Positions 10,166 to 19,562 of a stretch of 22,914 nt of DNA are shown piece after piece. The stretch's first letter is position 1. Every line of letters begins with the position of its first letter. Source of the stretch: a virus; IMG/VR virus record IMGVR_UViG_3300017969_000161, positions 1 to 22,914 of that record; one strand, given 5' to 3'. The notes under the pieces are model-generated. The model had not been told where the DNA came from. It saw nothing but the letters and a program-made list of their open reading frames with translations, and did no database searches. The translations under genes were made by a program, and so were the position numbers.

Positions 10166-10173
10166 TATTTATA
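10166..10173 (-). promoter_or_regulatory. Late promoter for gp18 (TATAAATA)
   Basis: Exact T4-type late octamer on the minus strand, just after the gp17 stop (10177) and about 50 bases before the gp18 ATG. Confidence 0.85.
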
Positions 10174-12868: not shown

Positions 12869-13645
12869 TTATGTTACTGGATTATCAGTCCACGTTTCAC
12901 TAAATCCAAAATCATCATCTGCATCTGCAGAAGTTGGGTCTGGAGTTGTCACCAATCTACTAGTAGGTGTAATTGATGTTCCTATAGTAGGAGAGTTGTC
13001 TAAGAAAGCATCTGCTTGCACAGTCTTAATGATACCTTGCTCGGAAATAGGTCCATAGAAATTCATCTTTACAGTAAATGTCATAGTATATATGATACTT
13101 CTGCGAGAAGCAAAATCACCTTCATAATCATCCTCATATGTTAGACTTTCTAGTATAAGAGGAAAGTCATCTTTAATACCCATCTCAGGAACAGCATTAA
13201 TAGTTAAAGTATATGCTGGTGTGAAAAATGGTAATATTTGTTCAACAACTTGAAGTGCATCTTCTTGGTTTTTTGCCATAATAAACAGACTGAAATTCAA
13301 GTTGTAAGGTACAGATTGATATTGTCTTTTAATCTCTGTGCTAGTAGTACCAACTGTTTTACGAACATTCATTTTGTTTACTTTACGTTGACCATCATAA
13401 TTAAATCCACTAATTTCAAAACCCATTCTTGGTAAAGTTAGTTGATGTGTATTTGTTAGTTGAGGATTTTCATATAGTCTAGCAAGAAATTTTTGTTTTG
13501 GTCCATATGCAAGAGGCACTTTCAGTGATTGTATTGCATTACCGTTTGCATCTTTTCTACGAATGTCGATATCATTGAATACGCTACCAAATGCGATAAC
13601 ACTTCTGCGAATTGTTTCATGATAAAAATGATTTTGTCCTAACAT
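12869..13645 (-). CDS. gp15: Tail terminator / proximal sheath stabiliser gp15
   Basis: The 258-aa protein (T4 gp15 is 272 aa) caps the tail tube and sheath and connects to the neck. Family features are an N-terminal HFYHETIRRSVIAFGSVFND with IDIRRKD (residues 6-32), LKVPLAYGPKQKFLARL (41-57), LPRMGFEISGFNYD (71-84), QVVEQILPFFTP at 132-143, and SRRSIIYTMTFTVKMNFYGP near residue 190-210. The C-terminal tail (after about 225) is Thr/Asp-rich and likely disordered. Its ATG overlaps the gp14 stop (TAATG), indicating coupled translation with the neck protein. Confidence 0.95.
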   Translation of the reverse strand: MLGQNHFYHETIRRSVIAFGSVFNDIDIRRKDANGNAIQSLKVPLAYGPKQKFLARLYENPQLTNTHQLTLPRMGFEISGFNYDGQRKVNKMNVRKTVGTTSTEIKRQYQSVPYNLNFSLFIMAKNQEDALQVVEQILPFFTPAYTLTINAVPEMGIKDDFPLILESLTYEDDYEGDFASRRSIIYTMTFTVKMNFYGPISEQGIIKTVQADAFLDNSPTIGTSITPTSRLVTTPDPTSADADDDFGFSETWTDNPVT

Positions 13646-14427
13646 TATCTTTGTACCTCACCAAATGGATTGCTTGTGCTAAAGTCTATGATATCTTCTG
13701 CATTCAAACTAAAGTCGTTGTTTCTTGAAAGAGGTTCAATACTTGCACCAATTGTTGTCGCATTAGTTGTTGTTGAAAGTGTATAATCTTCTTTGATAAT
13801 CTTAAATCCATTTTCAAGCAACAATGAACCTGAACTATCTTCAAGTGATATTTCATAGTTAAACATGTCAGTTGAACGTGCATCTTCAATAGCATCAATC
13901 GCTGATACACCAGTATCAATCTTCTCTGAACTGTATACAAATCTTTCAACATCTAATCTGTATGTGTAGATATTATTTGCTTGATAGAAAATATTCTCAT
14001 GTTCAACAAATGTGATTTCAAATAAACCTTTTGTCATAGGAAAGTATAGTAAGTCACCTTCGTTTGGTCTGCCTTCTACAATTAAAGATGCGTTATCATC
14101 AACTGCAGTAGACCAACGTGATTTAACAACAACAAAACTTGCCCTGTCTCGTATCTCAACACCAAATTTCGACAAGAAGTCACCTTCACCCTCAAATCCA
14201 TCTACTGATTGTAGATACATCTCTATAGAGTGTGCAGACGTAAATTTAGATAACTCATCTTCATTGAAGATTGTGTCTACGTTTACTAATGTGCGAGGAA
14301 TGTAATAGATGTCAAAACCATAAATCTTAATTGCTTCTGTATAAAGATTTTCAATTAGGGTTTGCTCTAAAGAATAACCTGTACTATCTAATCCGCCGCC
14401 TTGGTCGAAATACGCATTAAGTGCCAT
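13645..14427 (-). CDS. gp14: Neck protein gp14
   Basis: The 260-aa protein (T4 gp14 is 256 aa) forms, with gp13, the neck that seals the filled head and joins it to the tail. The N-terminus has EQTLIENLYTEAIKIYGFDI followed by YYIPRTLVNVDTIFNEDELS (residues 22-61), a strong gp14 signature, then AHSIEMYLQSVDGFEGEGDF with LSKFGVEIRDRASFVV, and the typical EGRPNEGDLLYFPMTKGLFE. The TAATG overlap couples it to gp15. Four bases separate it from the gp13 stop. Confidence 0.95.
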   Translation of the reverse strand: MALNAYFDQGGGLDSTGYSLEQTLIENLYTEAIKIYGFDIYYIPRTLVNVDTIFNEDELSKFTSAHSIEMYLQSVDGFEGEGDFLSKFGVEIRDRASFVVVKSRWSTAVDDNASLIVEGRPNEGDLLYFPMTKGLFEITFVEHENIFYQANNIYTYRLDVERFVYSSEKIDTGVSAIDAIEDARSTDMFNYEISLEDSSGSLLLENGFKIIKEDYTLSTTTNATTIGASIEPLSRNNDFSLNAEDIIDFSTSNPFGEVQR

Positions 14428-14431
14428 GTAA

Positions 14432-15373
14432 TCATCCTACCATCATGTCAACTGGTAATTCATATCTGAGTGACATTTCTTCTTCGATTTTTGCAATCTC
14501 TTCCATTGCTTCTTGCATAATACGAACACCATCAAGTGTTACACCACCTGGCATTTGTACTCCAGCAAATTTACTTAGATTGTTACCCCATTGCAATTTG
14601 ATTAGTGCGGTAAGATATTTCTTTAAGAACATATCGTTATACACATCAGCATAAGTTGCAGGGTCTAAAATTCTATATGCTTCAAATACAAGATACTCAT
14701 CTGCTTTAATATCATTGTTCCAGTCCATGTCTACAAAAATTCTATCAGAATGACGATTAAATCTAATTGGTTTTTCACCAACTAAAAGTTCATCAATTAA
14801 CGATAGATGTTGCTGTATCATGTTATAGTATAGCACAGATGTACTTGCTAAGTCAAATAATTCATTTAATCTTAGTTGATAGCGAACATCAAACATATCT
14901 ATCTGTGTGTTATTTGTGAAAGGAAATACTCGTTCTACTCCTGTAATAGCATCAGTTACAGGAACATAACCGTTCTTAATATCACCTACTGTGATTGCTG
15001 TGATTGTATCTGTCGCTGATGATGATGCACCTGTAATTGCTTCAGTAGTCAAATCACCAACTTCTTTATAAAGTCTTAGTGTAGTTGATGTTGGAGCATC
15101 ATATATGTAAGCGACTGCACTAGATGTGCCTCCAGTAATTTTCTCGCCAATAGTAAATTGCGAGGAATCTGAAACTGTTATTGTTGTTGCTGTTACTTTG
15201 TGCTTGAGATATGTTTTCTCTACACCGTCAAAGTGATATTCTTGAAAGAACTGAATTGCTTCATCTGTTCTATCATCTATCTGGTCAGTTGACACATTAA
15301 TATCAATGACGCCTTTACCTAGACGGCGCAAGCAATATTCTTGTAACTCGCTTCTGCTTGTTGGGTTCGCCAT
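14432..15373 (-). CDS. gp13: Neck protein gp13 with an inserted beta module
   Basis: The 313-aa protein (T4 gp13 is 309 aa) is the portal-proximal neck component. It is recognised by NPTSRSELQEYCLRRLGKGV at residues 3-22, IDINVSTDQIDDRTDEAIQF (23-42), YHFDGVEKTYLKH (46-58), and a C-terminal half with YQLRLNELFDL, IRFNRHSDRIFVDMDWNND and GVTLDGVRIMQEA. Between KHKVTA and DIKNGYVPV (about residues 61-130) sits a Thr/Ser/Gly-rich beta insert with ITGGTSSAVAYIYD, resembling modules that recur in marine phage structural proteins. The ATG follows directly on a hairpin whose 3' arm holds its GGAG ribosome site (see the hairpin entry), so its translation may be regulated. Confidence 0.94.
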   Translation of the reverse strand: MANPTSRSELQEYCLRRLGKGVIDINVSTDQIDDRTDEAIQFFQEYHFDGVEKTYLKHKVTATTITVSDSSQFTIGEKITGGTSSAVAYIYDAPTSTTLRLYKEVGDLTTEAITGASSSATDTITAITVGDIKNGYVPVTDAITGVERVFPFTNNTQIDMFDVRYQLRLNELFDLASTSVLYYNMIQQHLSLIDELLVGEKPIRFNRHSDRIFVDMDWNNDIKADEYLVFEAYRILDPATYADVYNDMFLKKYLTALIKLQWGNNLSKFAGVQMPGGVTLDGVRIMQEAMEEIAKIEEEMSLRYELPVDMMVG

Positions 15374-15379
15374 AAAAAA

Positions 15380-15419
15380 TCTCCAAGGTATGTTCTTATT
15401 AGTATTTATACCTTGGAGA
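15380..15419 (-). terminator. Hairpin that combines terminator, late promoter and sequestered ribosome site upstream of gp13
   Basis: On the transcribed strand TCTCCAAGGTAT (15419-15408) pairs perfectly over 12 bp with ATACCTTGGAGA (15391-15380), with a 16-base loop, followed by TTTTTT and then the gp13 ATG at 15373. Read-through RNA from the 131-aa gene could terminate here. If it did not, the stem would hide the GGAG ribosome site (15384-15381). The late promoter TATAAATA lies at 15410-15403, so its transcripts should start near 15397 and lack the 5' arm, leaving GGAG free. The hairpin is seen directly; its action is inferred by analogy with T4 gene e and soc. Confidence 0.75.
15403..15410 (-). 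promoter_or_regulatory. Late promoter for gp13, embedded in the hairpin (TATAAATA)
   Basis: Exact T4-type late octamer, its first bases in the 5' arm of the hairpin at 15380-15419 and the rest in the loop, 30 bases before the gp13 ATG. Confidence 0.85.
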
Positions 15420-15452: not shown

Positions 15453-15848
15453 TTATGCTAGAACTGCTTCAACTTCTCCATGTTGTTTTGAGTTTGTTGT
15501 AATAGCAAGTGCTTTCACATTTTCAAACGAGGCGGCGTTATCTGTTGTCAACATTCCTTTATAATCAGATAATACTAGAGTATCACCCTTTGCTACAGTA
15601 CCACGAACTTTGACAATACAACGACCAGACATTGCTACATATGGATTATTAGTTCTATCTAGTGAATAGACAACACCAAATGCTTTGTTGTCGGATGCAC
15701 CTGTTGTAACTGCAATTTCATAATCTCCTGAAGTTGCAAGTCTCACAAAGGTTCCTACTGACAATAAATTGGCAGGATCAACAGTAAATCTTTCTGCAAA
15801 GTCTGATACTTCTCTTTGTAGGATTAATCTTCCGTTTTTAATTGGCAT
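15453..15848 (-). CDS. Small beta-rich virion-type protein, function unknown
   Basis: The 131-aa protein begins MPIKNGRLILQREVSDFAER and continues as alternating beta strands, with CIVKVRGTVAKGDTLVLSDY at about residues 76-95 and a short C-terminal EVEAVLA. There are no signal peptide, membrane helix or catalytic motifs. The VxVxGTVxxGDxLVxSDxxG pattern resembles capsid decoration or head/tail fibre proteins, which I cannot separate by eye. It lies between the fibre-type genes and the neck genes and is followed by the gp13 hairpin/terminator, so it is probably the last gene of the upstream unit. The promoter is probably the tandem pair at 16767-16784. Confidence 0.8.
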   Translation of the reverse strand: MPIKNGRLILQREVSDFAERFTVDPANLLSVGTFVRLATSGDYEIAVTTGASDNKAFGVVYSLDRTNNPYVAMSGRCIVKVRGTVAKGDTLVLSDYKGMLTTDNAASFENVKALAITTNSKQHGEVEAVLA

Positions 15849-16766: not shown

Positions 16767-16774
16767 TATTTATA
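16767..16774 (-). promoter_or_regulatory. Late promoter, proximal of a tandem pair (TATAAATA)
   Basis: Exact T4-type late octamer on the minus strand in the 59-base gap before the 288-aa gene, 10 bases from a second copy, i.e. about one helical turn away. Confidence 0.8.
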
Positions 16775-16776
16775 TC

Positions 16777-16784
16777 TATTTATA
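16777..16784 (-). promoter_or_regulatory. Late promoter, distal of a tandem pair (TATAAATA)
   Basis: Second exact octamer, directly after the stop codon of the 188-aa gene (16786-16788). Confidence 0.75.
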
Positions 16785-16785
16785 A

Positions 16786-17352
16786 TTAAACACCATCAAA
16801 GGTTACTGAACCTGATTGCACCCCATCTTCTGCTATTGCAATTTCTTTTGCAATCATAAAAAAGTCTCTTACCTCAAAATCTCTATCATTATTATTATTC
16901 TTAACTCTCACATCAAATGTAATTTGATTTGTTGACCTAGGTATATATGCATGATTGATTCCAATTGCACTTCTAAAGTTTCTAGAATGACCTAATCTTC
17001 TAGTTGGAGCAATTCTATCGTTTCTTCCACCACTATGTGAATATTCATTACCATAAGGTTGTAATCCATTATATCCAGATTGTTCATATTCCATTTCTCC
17101 GTTTGCAAATAATGCTGACGAATATCGGTCACTTGAGTTGTCTGTACTGCTACTGTCACCTAATGTAAAAGAACAATTTATCTCCACAATACTTTCTGGA
17201 TATTGTGGAGTTATAAGTAAAGTTTTATTATTAATAATAGCATATGAGTTTGAACTTGAACTATGAGTCCAAGCACCTTCATTTTCAACAAATTTAAATT
17301 GAACTAATAGAGAACCCTTAACTGCTCTTTTTGTAATTTTTTGAAGTGCCAT
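16786..17352 (-). CDS. Adhesin-like paralog 5 (188 aa), subfamily B, HxH motifs lost
   Basis: This is the last member in transcription order of a five-gene family. Shared family features are MAL-x-K-x-T near the start, GSLLVQF (residues 13-19), TPQYPESIVE (48-57), NGEMEY (84-89) and a C-terminal FFMIAKEIAI. It is closest to the 180-aa neighbour: PYGN, HSGGRNDR, AP-x-RR and GINHAY align one to one. Where the neighbour has HSH and HGH, this one has YSH (104-106) and LGH (120-122), so the first His of each HxH is replaced. I infer a beta-sandwich fibre-tip or adhesin fold, function unproven. A 10-bp hairpin lies inside the gene at 17182-17210. The ribosome site is AAGGG. Confidence 0.82.
   Translation of the reverse strand: MALQKITKRAVKGSLLVQFKFVENEGAWTHSSSSNSYAIINNKTLLITPQYPESIVEINCSFTLGDSSSTDNSSDRYSSALFANGEMEYEQSGYNGLQPYGNEYSHSGGRNDRIAPTRRLGHSRNFRSAIGINHAYIPRSTNQITFDVRVKNNNNDRDFEVRDFFMIAKEIAIAEDGVQSGSVTFDGV
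17182..17210 (-). repeat. Perfect 10-bp inverted repeat inside the 188-aa gene
   Basis: CTCCACAATA at 17182-17191 and TATTGTGGAG at 17201-17210 pair perfectly around a 9-base spacer. It covers the codons of the conserved TPQYPESIVE motif. The 180-aa paralog encodes the same motif without the repeat. No T-run follows, so it is not an obvious terminator. Confidence 0.7.
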
Positions 17353-17379
17353 ACTATAATCCCTTGTAGATTGTATACT

Positions 17380-17922
17380 CTACTGGGCGCCAGATGTTGC
17401 TAATCCAATAGAAATTTCCTTTGCAATAAAAAAGAAGTCACGAATACGAATACTTCTCGTTGTACTATTTTTTACGCGAATATCCATATCTAGTTCATTT
17501 GTAGTCGCAGGAGTATAAGCATGATTGATGCCCATAGCGGCAGTAAAGTTCGTTACATGACCATGTCTTCTTGATGGTGCTGTTCTATCGTTTCTTCCAC
17601 CAGTATGAGAATGGTCATTACCATAAGGGTTTACACCTCTAATTCCGGTTTCTTCATATTCATTACTTCCATTCACAAACAATGCACAAGAAAAACTGTC
17701 AGTAATGTTCTGACTATCAGAAATATCTCTAGATGTCATGCTTGCTTGATTTTCAATAATGGAATCCGCATATTGTGGTGTCATTAGAATATTCTTACCA
17801 TTAATTTCTGTGTATGTATCTTGTGATGCTGTTAAGTCCCAATCGCCCGCGTTTTCAGTATACTTAAATTGGACTAAGAGAGACCCATGTACGATATGTT
17901 TTGTTACTCTTGTTAATGCCAT
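17380..17922 (-). CDS. Adhesin-like paralog 4 (180 aa), subfamily B
   Basis: The protein begins MALTRVTKHIVHGSLLVQFK and carries the family motifs TPQYADSIIE (48-57), NGSNEY (84-89), PYGNDHSHTGGRNDR (99-113), GINHAYTPATTN (131-142) and FFFIAKEISIG. HSH at 104-106 and HGH at 120-122 are HxH motifs, of the kind that coordinate metal in the T4 gp37 fibre tip; metal binding here is inference. A 20-base DNA block (17583-17602) is identical to one in the 188-aa neighbour (17013-17032), so the pair diverged recently or exchanges sequence. No signal peptide or transmembrane segment is seen. The ribosome site is AGAGGG. Confidence 0.83.
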   Translation of the reverse strand: MALTRVTKHIVHGSLLVQFKYTENAGDWDLTASQDTYTEINGKNILMTPQYADSIIENQASMTSRDISDSQNITDSFSCALFVNGSNEYEETGIRGVNPYGNDHSHTGGRNDRTAPSRRHGHVTNFTAAMGINHAYTPATTNELDMDIRVKNSTTRSIRIRDFFFIAKEISIGLATSGAQ

Positions 17923-17933
17923 TTTTTTCCCTC

Positions 17934-18464
17934 TTACGTTAAGTTGTAATGCTCGCCAGCAATCTCAGAAATTGTCAGAAATCCTTCAGCAAAAGTAATT
18001 GAAGGACCATCGTTCTCGACTGCTACCATACACTGTACAGACTGTGCGTTAGTTGATCCTGGAGCATGAATATGGTTCATGTAGATTGCTGATCCAAAAC
18101 CATAGTGTCTCCAATTCTGGCGACCATTACCCTCACCAAACTGTTGATTTTGATGACTATGCCCACCTGCCCTGTTAGGATTGTTTCCTATAATACCTCT
18201 ATAAAAATATTCATCAGAACCATTAACAGTAAACTTTGCCGCGCCAGAATGATATCCGGTAGTAATTCCAGAGGAGTTTTGATATGCCGAACCAGTACAT
18301 ACTATTTCTAAGTGACTATCAGAGTATTGTGGCGTCACAGATGAAGCACTGCCCCAATTCTCGTATGTTGAACTGGTCTGTGTTTTATCTGATAAATCTG
18401 CTCCGTAGTGTGCTATTAGAACCGATCCATACACAATGTGTTTTGTTACTTTTGTTAATGCCAT
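17934..18464 (-). CDS. Adhesin-like paralog 3 (176 aa), subfamily A
   Basis: The protein begins MALTKVTKHIVYGSVLIAHY and shares GADLSDK, TPQYSDSHLE (44-53), NGSDEY (81-86), HSHQNQQ (102-108), NGRQN (113-117), NHIHAPGSTN (130-139) and a closing GFLTISEIAG with the 174-aa neighbour. HSH (102-104) and HIH (131-133) are HxH motifs. Strand-rich composition, and the similarity of the TPQ-x-SDS and C-terminal GFLTISEIA patterns to a common phage fibre C-terminal domain, suggest a free-standing fibre-tip or adhesin domain; the role is inferred. The gene follows the 174-aa paralog by 25 bases. The ribosome site is AAAGGG. Confidence 0.83.
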   Translation of the reverse strand: MALTKVTKHIVYGSVLIAHYGADLSDKTQTSSTYENWGSASSVTPQYSDSHLEIVCTGSAYQNSSGITTGYHSGAAKFTVNGSDEYFYRGIIGNNPNRAGGHSHQNQQFGEGNGRQNWRHYGFGSAIYMNHIHAPGSTNAQSVQCMVAVENDGPSITFAEGFLTISEIAGEHYNLT

Positions 18465-18489
18465 TTTTTAACCCTTTATCTATATCTAT

Positions 18490-19014
18490 TTATGTAAGAT
18501 TATATCCTTCACTTGCAAGTTCGGTTACAGTCATAAATCCTTCAGCAAATGTTACATTTAGTGAGTTACTAGTTGCAACTTCACATTGAAAAGTTTGTTC
18601 ATTGGTGGTTCCTGGTTGATGTATATGATTTACATAAATTGCAGTTCCGCTTCCATAAATTCTAAAATTCTGGCGACCATTATTCTCACCATACTGTTGG
18701 TTTTGATGGGAGTGGTCACCACTGTATTGCTGATATCCACCAATCAAATTATCTAACATATACTCTTCTTGTCCATTTATCATTATTCTAAGTCTACCAT
18801 AACTAGTTCCAGACGGCATGTTTGATCCAATTCTTGCGCTACCAGTTAGAATAATTTCTAAAAAACTATCACTAAACTGTGGCGTTAAAATAACAGAATC
18901 GCCCCATGAAGCAAATGTTGAACTAGACGTACTTTTATCCGATAAATCTGCTCCGTAGTGCGCTACAAGAACCGATCCAAATACAACTGTTTTTTTTACT
19001 TTTCTCAGCACCAT
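18490..19014 (-). CDS. Adhesin-like paralog 2 (174 aa), subfamily A
   Basis: The protein begins MVLRKVKKTVVFGSVLVAHY, slightly diverged from the MALTK start of its sisters, then has GADLSDK, TPQFSDSFLE (44-53), NGQEEY (80-85), HSHQNQQ (101-107), NGRQNF (112-117), NHIHQPGTTN (129-138) and a closing GFMTVTELA. HxH motifs are at 101-103 and 130-132. The DNA retains blocks identical to the 176-aa gene, for example 20 bases at 18941-18960 versus 18391-18410. No clear promoter precedes it. The GAGAG/AGGG ribosome site is farther from the ATG than in the sisters, so expression may be lower. Confidence 0.82.
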   Translation of the reverse strand: MVLRKVKKTVVFGSVLVAHYGADLSDKSTSSSTFASWGDSVILTPQFSDSFLEIILTGSARIGSNMPSGTSYGRLRIMINGQEEYMLDNLIGGYQQYSGDHSHQNQQYGENNGRQNFRIYGSGTAIYVNHIHQPGTTNEQTFQCEVATSNSLNVTFAEGFMTVTELASEGYNLT

Positions 19015-19034
19015 TATATTAAATCTCTCACCCT

Positions 19035-19562
19035 TTAGTTTACATAGTTATTAGAAGGAGTACCTGTTGTGATACCACCTGCAACTTCTTTCACCATTAA
19101 AAATCCGTCTCTACCTTCTAAGTTTCCTCCAGCATTATTGTTATCTCTCTGAACTTGTACAGTTGCAGTCTGTTGATTTGTAGTTCCAGGTAAATGTCTA
19201 TGATACATATTCACTGATTTACCTTCTCTACGACCAGCGGCGCTATTATATGACCTATCGAATACTGAAACTGAAGCGGCATCATTAACTGTATATTCTG
19301 TACTTCCATTTATTTCTAGAAATAAATGACATCTAGGACTATCGTAAGTACCATCATTCGGCGCAGAACTGTCTGCTTGATTTGACATAGTTCCGCTCAT
19401 ACGAACTTCCATAATCGAATCGGCGTACTCAGGTGTCAATGTGATACTATCCCAGTCCACCACACTCGTGGATGATGAATCCACATCACCCATATCTTTA
19501 TAACGAACTTGAACGATAGTCGCTCCATATACAATGTGTTTAGTTAATTTTGTCAGTGCCAT
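19035..19562 (-). CDS. Adhesin-like paralog 1 (175 aa), divergent member
   Basis: This is the first of the five in transcription order. It begins MALTKLTKHIVYGATIVQVR and keeps TPEYADSIME (43-52), NGSTEY (85-90), HRHLPGTTNQQ (121-131) and GFLMVKEVAGG, but lacks the longer HSH loop of subfamilies A and B. It carries a single HxH at 121-123. Its C-terminus has a distinct tail (TTGTPSNNYVN). A 22-bp perfect palindrome lies within the gene at 19307-19328. It follows the 792-aa fibre-like gene by 12 bases, suggesting a transcriptional unit with it. Function is inferred as for the sisters. The ribosome site is AAAGGG. Confidence 0.82.
   Translation of the reverse strand: MALTKLTKHIVYGATIVQVRYKDMGDVDSSSTSVVDWDSITLTPEYADSIMEVRMSGTMSNQADSSAPNDGTYDSPRCHLFLEINGSTEYTVNDAASVSVFDRSYNSAAGRREGKSVNMYHRHLPGTTNQQTATVQVQRDNNNAGGNLEGRDGFLMVKEVAGGITTGTPSNNYVN
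19307..19328 (-). repeat. Perfect 22-bp palindrome inside the 175-aa gene
   Basis: CATTTATTTCT at 19307-19317 is followed immediately by its exact reverse complement AGAAATAAATG at 19318-19328, centred on CTAG, with no spacer. It encodes part of the HLFLEING segment. With no loop it would favour a cruciform or dimeric protein site over an RNA hairpin; no role is known. Confidence 0.75.

Follow-up and report, generated by a model that had tools for sequence, protein, structure and literature searches.

The window, by which we mean the whole stretch of DNA analysed here, is a virus record fragment of 22,914 bases from an uncultured T4-like phage. Its minus strand encodes a 313-aa neck protein, gp13 (head-tail adaptor Ad2; 14432..15373, minus strand; phrog_211, E 4.8e-39), the gene that we propose to be gated, and gp14 (head closure Hc2; 13645..14427, minus strand; PHROG match), the next gene of the gp13 unit. 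A co-directional ORF of 131 aa lies upstream (15453..15848, minus strand, from the ORF list) and is the putative source of read-through RNA; a PHROG search with it gave no match. The upstream unit has two copies of the late-type promoter TATAAATA at the gene two upstream of gp13 (16767..16784, minus strand, by motif count). Beyond these, the interval 16786-19562 (minus strand) holds five tandem ORFs of 174-188 aa that look like paralogues by eye, with common starts such as MALTKVTKHIVYGS; a PHROG search with one of them (16786-17352) likewise found no match.

Direct reading of the minus strand in front of gp13 gives, in order, TCTCCAAGGTAT, a 16-nt loop (15392..15407, minus strand), ATACCTTGGAGA, TTTTTT and the ATG (15373-15371). 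A repeat search places the two arms at 15380-15391 and 15408-15419, each 12 nt long, 100% complementary and 16 nt apart. The 5′ arm (15408..15419, minus strand) contains the anti-ribosome-site CTCC, and the 3′ arm (15380..15391, minus strand) holds the gp13 ribosome site GGAG (15384-15381), 7 nt 5′ of the ATG. The T6 tract between stem and ATG (15374..15379, minus strand) is a possible terminator U-tract. A copy of TATAAATA (15403..15410, minus strand) spans the end of the 5′ arm and the loop, its first three letters being the last three bases of the arm. The first-pass annotation had described this arrangement of a 12-bp stem, a GGAG in the 3′ arm, a T6 running into the ATG and a nested promoter, and both the direct reading and the repeat search confirm it. 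If transcription starts 13 nt after the first T of the promoter, a T4 rule that we presume to hold here, the late RNA would begin inside the loop at about 15397, in agreement with the start that had been proposed, and would lack the 5′ arm.

The window contains eight copies of TATAAATA, all on the minus strand and, by coordinates, all between minus-strand ORFs, where 1.7 copies are expected and none of 100 shuffles reaches eight; the first copy downstream of the gp13 promoter is at 10166-10173. Sigma-70-like sites are no more frequent than chance predicts (57 versus 66.7 expected). The gp13 leader RNA has a folding energy of -16.8 kcal/mol, whereas its shuffles average -6.64 (sd 2.27; z -4.48) and 0 of 200 fold as low. 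Opening the start region is predicted to cost 12.0-15.8 kcal/mol in RNAs whose 5′ ends lie at 15419 or upstream, and 6.0-6.1 kcal/mol in those with 5′ ends at 15410-15394. The cost is nearly the same throughout the latter range, so the argument does not depend on the exact late start. Some structure is left in the short leader, as opening it still takes about 6 kcal/mol. Two features of the T4-type hairpin-gated class are thus present: in silico, the ribosome site lies within a stable read-through hairpin, and the late promoter is so positioned, by sequence and the T4 rule, that its RNA would drop the 5′ arm.

The gain in accessibility from starting at the late promoter is 10.1 kcal/mol at gp13, versus -0.7 to 1.9 kcal/mol at the ten further window promoter/start pairs that we tested. 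The promoter before the major head gene (1660) forms a 6-bp ATCTCC/GGAGAT long-range pair in the minimum-energy fold, with a gain of just 1.5 kcal/mol. Gating as a general late-promoter feature of the window phage was rejected on the basis of these ten pairs and because other genes in relatives rarely pass. A known Rfam RNA was also rejected, as curated covariance models searched at gathering thresholds gave 0 matches across the whole window.

A homology scan of viral contigs with the window gp13 found 263 that encoded a relative, and 80 gp13 loci were kept. The 24 nearest of these share 67-100% identity with the window protein, and 23 are readable upstream. All 23, several of which are copies of nearly one virus, keep the stem, TATAAATA, GGAG and the T-tract, which directly follows the stem as T6 in this window clade; the loop varies in length and sequence. 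The stem sequence is nearly invariant within the clade. Pairing-preserving changes include a C to U in L005 that produces a G-U pair, and a U-A to A-U exchange at the base of an extended stem in L020-L024. An alignment of 12 rows (11 distinct) has 1 of 12 pairs altered on both sides, which 52 of 500 shuffles also reach, and this weak covariation means that the window clade alone is no proof of RNA pairing. Among the loci of about 50% identity from the same scan, a late promoter within 90 nt occurs only in L053; in the remainder the upstream stop codon mostly falls just before gp13. Loss of the stem among relatives had been named beforehand as an observation that would speak against the first-pass annotation; all 23 nearest relatives readable upstream retain it, and in distant relatives the arms still pair although their sequence is different.

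Those distant relatives were reached in two ways. A DNA pattern scan of all viral contigs used the skeleton CTCC, TATAAATA, GGAG and T-run and was not based on gp13. It returned 79 distinct sites, 57 of which are followed, at ribosome-site spacing, by an ORF of 60 aa or more; GGAG is paired in 56 of the 57. By profile search, 34 of these 56 strong sites belong to gp13, and their stems are mostly unrelated to that of the window. A relaxed version of the scan gave, among the matches listed, which are a sample, 5 gp13 sites in 25 strong ones. Homology scans with the window gp13 and three gp13 proteins from the pattern scan yielded 295 loci with 186 distinct upstreams after merging identical ones. 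We excluded loci whose match started inside the gene or at the edge of a contig (L006, L245, L259, L269-L271, L398, L401), as well as those with an upstream of less than 60 nt or with no start located. Groups A-D denote the scan that brought a locus and are not taxa. A late promoter nested in a ribosome-site hairpin is present in 12/43, 30/49, 17/55 and 29/39 loci in the four scans, and the gp13 proteins of all four types match PHROG 211 (head-tail adaptor). Distantly related T4-like viruses also carry a hairpin-nested late promoter 5′ of gp13, with stems of unrelated sequence. Because the stems differ between clades, the idea of one mobile hairpin that was copied from site to site finds no support. 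A scan of MAG contigs gave 4 gp13 loci with mixed labels, no such stem by eye and no usable host hint.

The turnover of sequence between clades also bears on the idea that the leader works as a regulated RNA switch to which a protein (such as gp13 itself or a RegA-like repressor) or a small molecule binds, with the late promoter serving as a bypass. Repressors are described, in the parts of the literature consulted, as binding many phage leaders, and a near-invariant stem such as that of the window clade is what a binding site might look like. Stem and loop sequences that are unrelated between clades fit a conserved binding site poorly, however, and the search at Rfam gathering thresholds produced no match; we regard such a switch as distinctly improbable.

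The strong sites of the two pattern scans outside gp13 fall before several kinds of gene. Hairpin-nested TATAAATA copies precede baseplate hub/tail lysozyme genes (L176 by PHROGs; L194, L489 and L506 by eye). Other carriers are a GIY-YIG-like homing endonuclease (L097) and an HNH endonuclease (L099), which repeat a known T4 theme and so provide a useful internal check of the scan. In L104, L138 and L182, a strong hairpin with nested TATAAATA and T6 lies 5′ of a gene whose nuclease-like product (110-147 aa read) begins like a signal peptide, and in L086, L151 and L184 a hairpin-nested TATAAATA precedes a small protein family that starts with MATVRNIVIDQNADYSEQF or similar.

Single sites of this kind can arise by chance or through base composition, and a strict classifier passes 6 of 87 genes other than gp13 from these loci, compared with 83 of 141 late-promoter gp13 upstreams. 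For quantitative comparison, 213 promoter-bearing upstreams of at least 95 nt were thinned at >80% ungapped identity within class to 142, comprising 93 gp13 leaders and 49 others. The median opening cost of the 93 gp13 leaders is 12.8 kcal/mol in read-through RNA versus 3.4 kcal/mol from the predicted late start; for the 49 other late-promoter genes it is 3.7 (long) versus 3.2 (short) kcal/mol, with a gain above 4 kcal/mol in 4 of 49. Promoters of gp13 lie nearer to the ATG (median 21 nt versus 44 nt in other genes), and a distance-matched comparison was made for this reason. In this comparison a gain of at least 4 kcal/mol is found in 75 of 93 gp13 leaders and in 3 of 19 other genes (p 9e-8). 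The effect is not uniform: 12 of the 27 group D leaders gain 4 kcal/mol or less, and 41 of the 93 gp13 leaders fail to beat all 20 shuffles of their own upstream, partly, we think, because the promoter belongs to the 5′ arm and stays unshuffled.

Exchanging arms between phages provides the strongest evidence for joint evolution of the two arms, with the qualification that related rows are not independent. Own arms of gp13 leaders pair with a mean of -14.3 kcal/mol and swapped arms with -8.0 kcal/mol, and 0 of 20,000 permutations are as good as the natural pairing. By group, the corresponding counts are 191 of 20,000 for A and 0 for each of B, C and D; for other genes the count is 2,748 of 20,000. 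Compensatory stem changes, which the first-pass annotation had proposed to look for, amount to weak covariation within the window clade; across clades, own arms outperform swapped ones. Shuffles, distance-matched genes and arm swaps together reject chance for gp13 as a group, and we find it scarcely credible as an explanation. Anatomy, conservation, matched turnover of the arms across clades and accessibility in the folding model are all shown computationally.

The builds that achieve this pairing differ. Many loci of group C pair the start-codon region ATGGC with a 5′ arm of GCCAT, the CAT of which forms the beginning of the promoter CATAAATA. Complementarity in this start-codon variant extends over at least 5 bp in 33 of 34 cases, and a Watson-Crick pair occupies position six in 31 of 34, versus 21.3 expected from base frequencies. 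In L307, L313, L316 and L325, GGCCATAAATA stands a few nucleotides 5′ of ATGGCC, which leaves the predicted late RNA with almost no leader, and in read-through RNA the start codon would be paired; a 6-nt rule dropped these four from the thinned set, and they are counted in the start-codon analysis. A further arrangement, seen by eye in L246, L247, L255, L258 and L263-L267, has the promoter just 5′ of the anti-ribosome-site arm and the predicted start directly after the arm. On a gp13 tree of 109 representatives, 70 are occluded, 12 have a promoter without occlusion and 27 have no promoter by rule, some of the last being nearly leaderless. The occluded state needs 19 changes on this tree, compared with a mean of 32.2 for shuffled labels (0 of 500 as low), and is far from having a single origin.

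These variants bear on whether the element chiefly ends transcription of the upstream unit, on DNA that it has in common with the following late promoter, and whether the ribosome site is hidden as a by-product of compactness. The T6 right after the stem and its retention in the window clade speak for a terminator, as do the cyanophages S-PM2 (L441) and ACG-2014j (L455), in which a strong hairpin with a T-run, and with GATAAATA or CTAAATA in the loop, ends 17-18 nt 5′ of the gp13 ATG and hides no clear ribosome site. The window element has a 12-bp stem with 5 G-C pairs and T6, but its 16-nt loop is long for a terminator and lies outside the range of our terminator pattern scan, which allowed loops of 3-8 nt. 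Termination needs no ribosome site inside the stem, one clade pairs the start codon instead, and a U-tract is found in 23 of 75 occluded gp13 leaders and absent in the other 52. A role mainly in termination is therefore unlikely. The variants, and the minority of leaders with a U-tract, indicate that the common denominator is hiding of the start site in RNA entering from upstream, not termination. Termination at the gp13 stem is possible and compatible with the sequence, as an optional extra and not a general component.

The same comparisons bear on whether the inverted repeat acts as DNA, for example as a protein-binding palindrome or a cruciform at the late promoter. A perfect 12-bp inverted repeat around a promoter might suggest as much, but the arms stay registered on the ribosome site or start codon while promoter distance and sequence vary, and a G-U pair is tolerated (L005), making a DNA-level role very improbable.

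We consider it likely that gp13 has a hairpin-gated late translation start, with the mechanism of T4 e, soc and I-TevI acting on a neck gene. From the features above we infer promoter use, start position, a block to translation, termination and purpose. RNA reading through from the upstream genes would contain both arms, fold and hide the gp13 ribosome site. RNA begun at the nested late promoter would lack the 5′ arm, leaving the ribosome site open and gp13 translated. Such a gate would couple gp13 supply to the gene's own late promoter, irrespective of upstream transcription; in the window, some of the read-through RNA may in addition be terminated by the stem and T6. Of the e/soc-type interpretation combined with termination that was offered at the outset, the hairpin, ribosome site and nested promoter stand as a conserved unit with accessibility of the kind required, and termination as a general part does not.

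A co-directional gene ends within 150 nt upstream in all 71 checkable occluded leaders (median gap 45 nt), and does so in 14 of 17 non-occluded promoter-bearing gp13 leaders and 36 of 39 other genes. With shares so similar, co-directionality permits read-through and does not favour insulation, and we dropped it as support for the latter.

An early/late timing switch at gp13 is no more than a possibility. As the gene two upstream has two late-type promoters, read-through RNA in the window may itself be late. The gated T4 cases are described, in the portions of PMC3014915 and PMC2988022 that we draw on, as late genes carried on long RNAs of early or middle class. This difference from the late-type promoters upstream of gp13 leads us to prefer insulation of neck-protein supply from read-through, over a pure clock, as the most likely purpose. 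According to parts of a T4 preprint, gp13 and the portal protein form aggregates without gp14, and gp13 and gp14 assemble together before docking (PMC12270204). The aggregation suggests that mistimed or excess gp13 would be harmful; the tie to the leader is our own.

A broader reading, which we put forward tentatively and rate a little short of an even chance as one joint claim, is that in much of the uncultured T4-like metagenome phages neck gene 13 is a preferred site for a hairpin-nested late promoter. Pairing would be selected while the letters turn over, and the builds would be interchangeable: the stem may enclose either the ribosome site or the start codon (in the latter case at times with a late RNA that is almost leaderless), or a terminator may be added. 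The element would then be a translational insulator limiting gp13 to its own late RNA, since unpartnered or excess gp13 would misbind portals. If so, dosage or order control of head closure would be a general rule in these phages. Gating is known from a few T4 genes, several of which encode lysis proteins or homing endonucleases, and here it appears to be repeated on one essential assembly gene. Differing stems with kept pairing before gp13 suggest that neck-protein supply needs shielding from read-through. The leader may thus offer a testable handle on the order of head filling, neck docking and tail joining, and the pattern a sequence rule for locating gated late genes in metagenomes.

We compared these leaders with 28 named records, chosen from listings and not a random sample: T4, Mosig, HTVC008M, DLP_6, phiN3, phiM12, Cr30, Melnitz-2, P-SSM2, AG-345-E02, AG-345-F15, S-SRM01, pf16, S-PM2, BUCT608, MED4-213, S-RIM8, ACG-2014f, S-SSM4, D528, S-CAM3, phiA8-29, S-CAM9, ACG-2014j, RHph_Y68, V05, DSL-LC03 and Bellamy. 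The gated leader is mostly absent from these 28, and by rule 22 of them have no usable copy of NATAAATA, which has been described as the cyanophage late promoter (PMC2984593, consulted in part). HTVC008M is counted among the 22 because its CATAAATA is too near the ATG. Only BUCT608 of the six with a usable copy reaches a gain of 4 (4.3 kcal/mol), although by eye it has no clear stem with a ribosome site nested in it; Mosig gains 3.7, and S-PM2 (0.8), S-CAM9 and Bellamy gain below 1. Upstream of gp13 in Caulobacter phage Cr30 (L435), a 7-bp predicted stem covers an AAGG ribosome site, with no TATAAATA in the stem. Five gp13 queries against phage records gave matches that were all below 60% identity. 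With no isolate above 60% identity to the gated gp13 types in that phage collection, we know of no cultured carrier.

Within the titles and openings of abstracts searched, which leave most subscription journals uncovered, a late promoter combined with a hairpin or ribosome site at gp13 or another neck gene is undescribed, in line with the earlier claim that its placement on a neck gene was new. The sections consulted of PMC5780444 and PMC2864571 contain nothing bearing on gating of the gp13 leader.

The nearest structures at gp13 itself in named phages differ from the window element. The cyanophage hairpins of S-PM2 and ACG-2014j resemble it in strength, T-run, loop motif and position just 5′ of the gene; they conceal no clear ribosome site, and ACG-2014j is without NATAAATA. 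T4 also has a hairpin (GGGGCCGCAAGGCCCC) just 5′ of gene 13, with no late promoter inside and the ribosome site outside the stem.

The closest functional likeness is to genes elsewhere in T4. The mechanism is established for T4 e and I-TevI in the available portions of PMC3014915 and PMC2988022, which name soc, 49, 25, 26, 39, I-TevII, I-TevIII, segB and mobE as further cases. At T4 e, as predicted at the window gp13, read-through RNA folds over the ribosome site, and RNA from late promoters lying in the 5′ strand of this fold is free of it (PMC3014915, in part). T4 e is a lysis gene following early or middle transcription, whereas the window gene encodes a neck protein, its upstream unit carries late-type promoters, and its stem is followed by a T-tract. 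T4 soc, 49, 25, 26 and 39, compared by description (PMC3014915, PMC2988022, in part), share a ribosome site or AUG held in a helix of the long RNA and are genes other than gp13. I-TevI, I-TevII, I-TevIII, segB and Aeh1 mobE share a ribosome-site hairpin and a promoter whose RNA drops the 5′ part (PMC2988022, in part); they are homing endonucleases, and the window gene is structural. What appears to be new, and is well supported by sequence comparison, is that a known T4-type control acts on the neck gene gp13.
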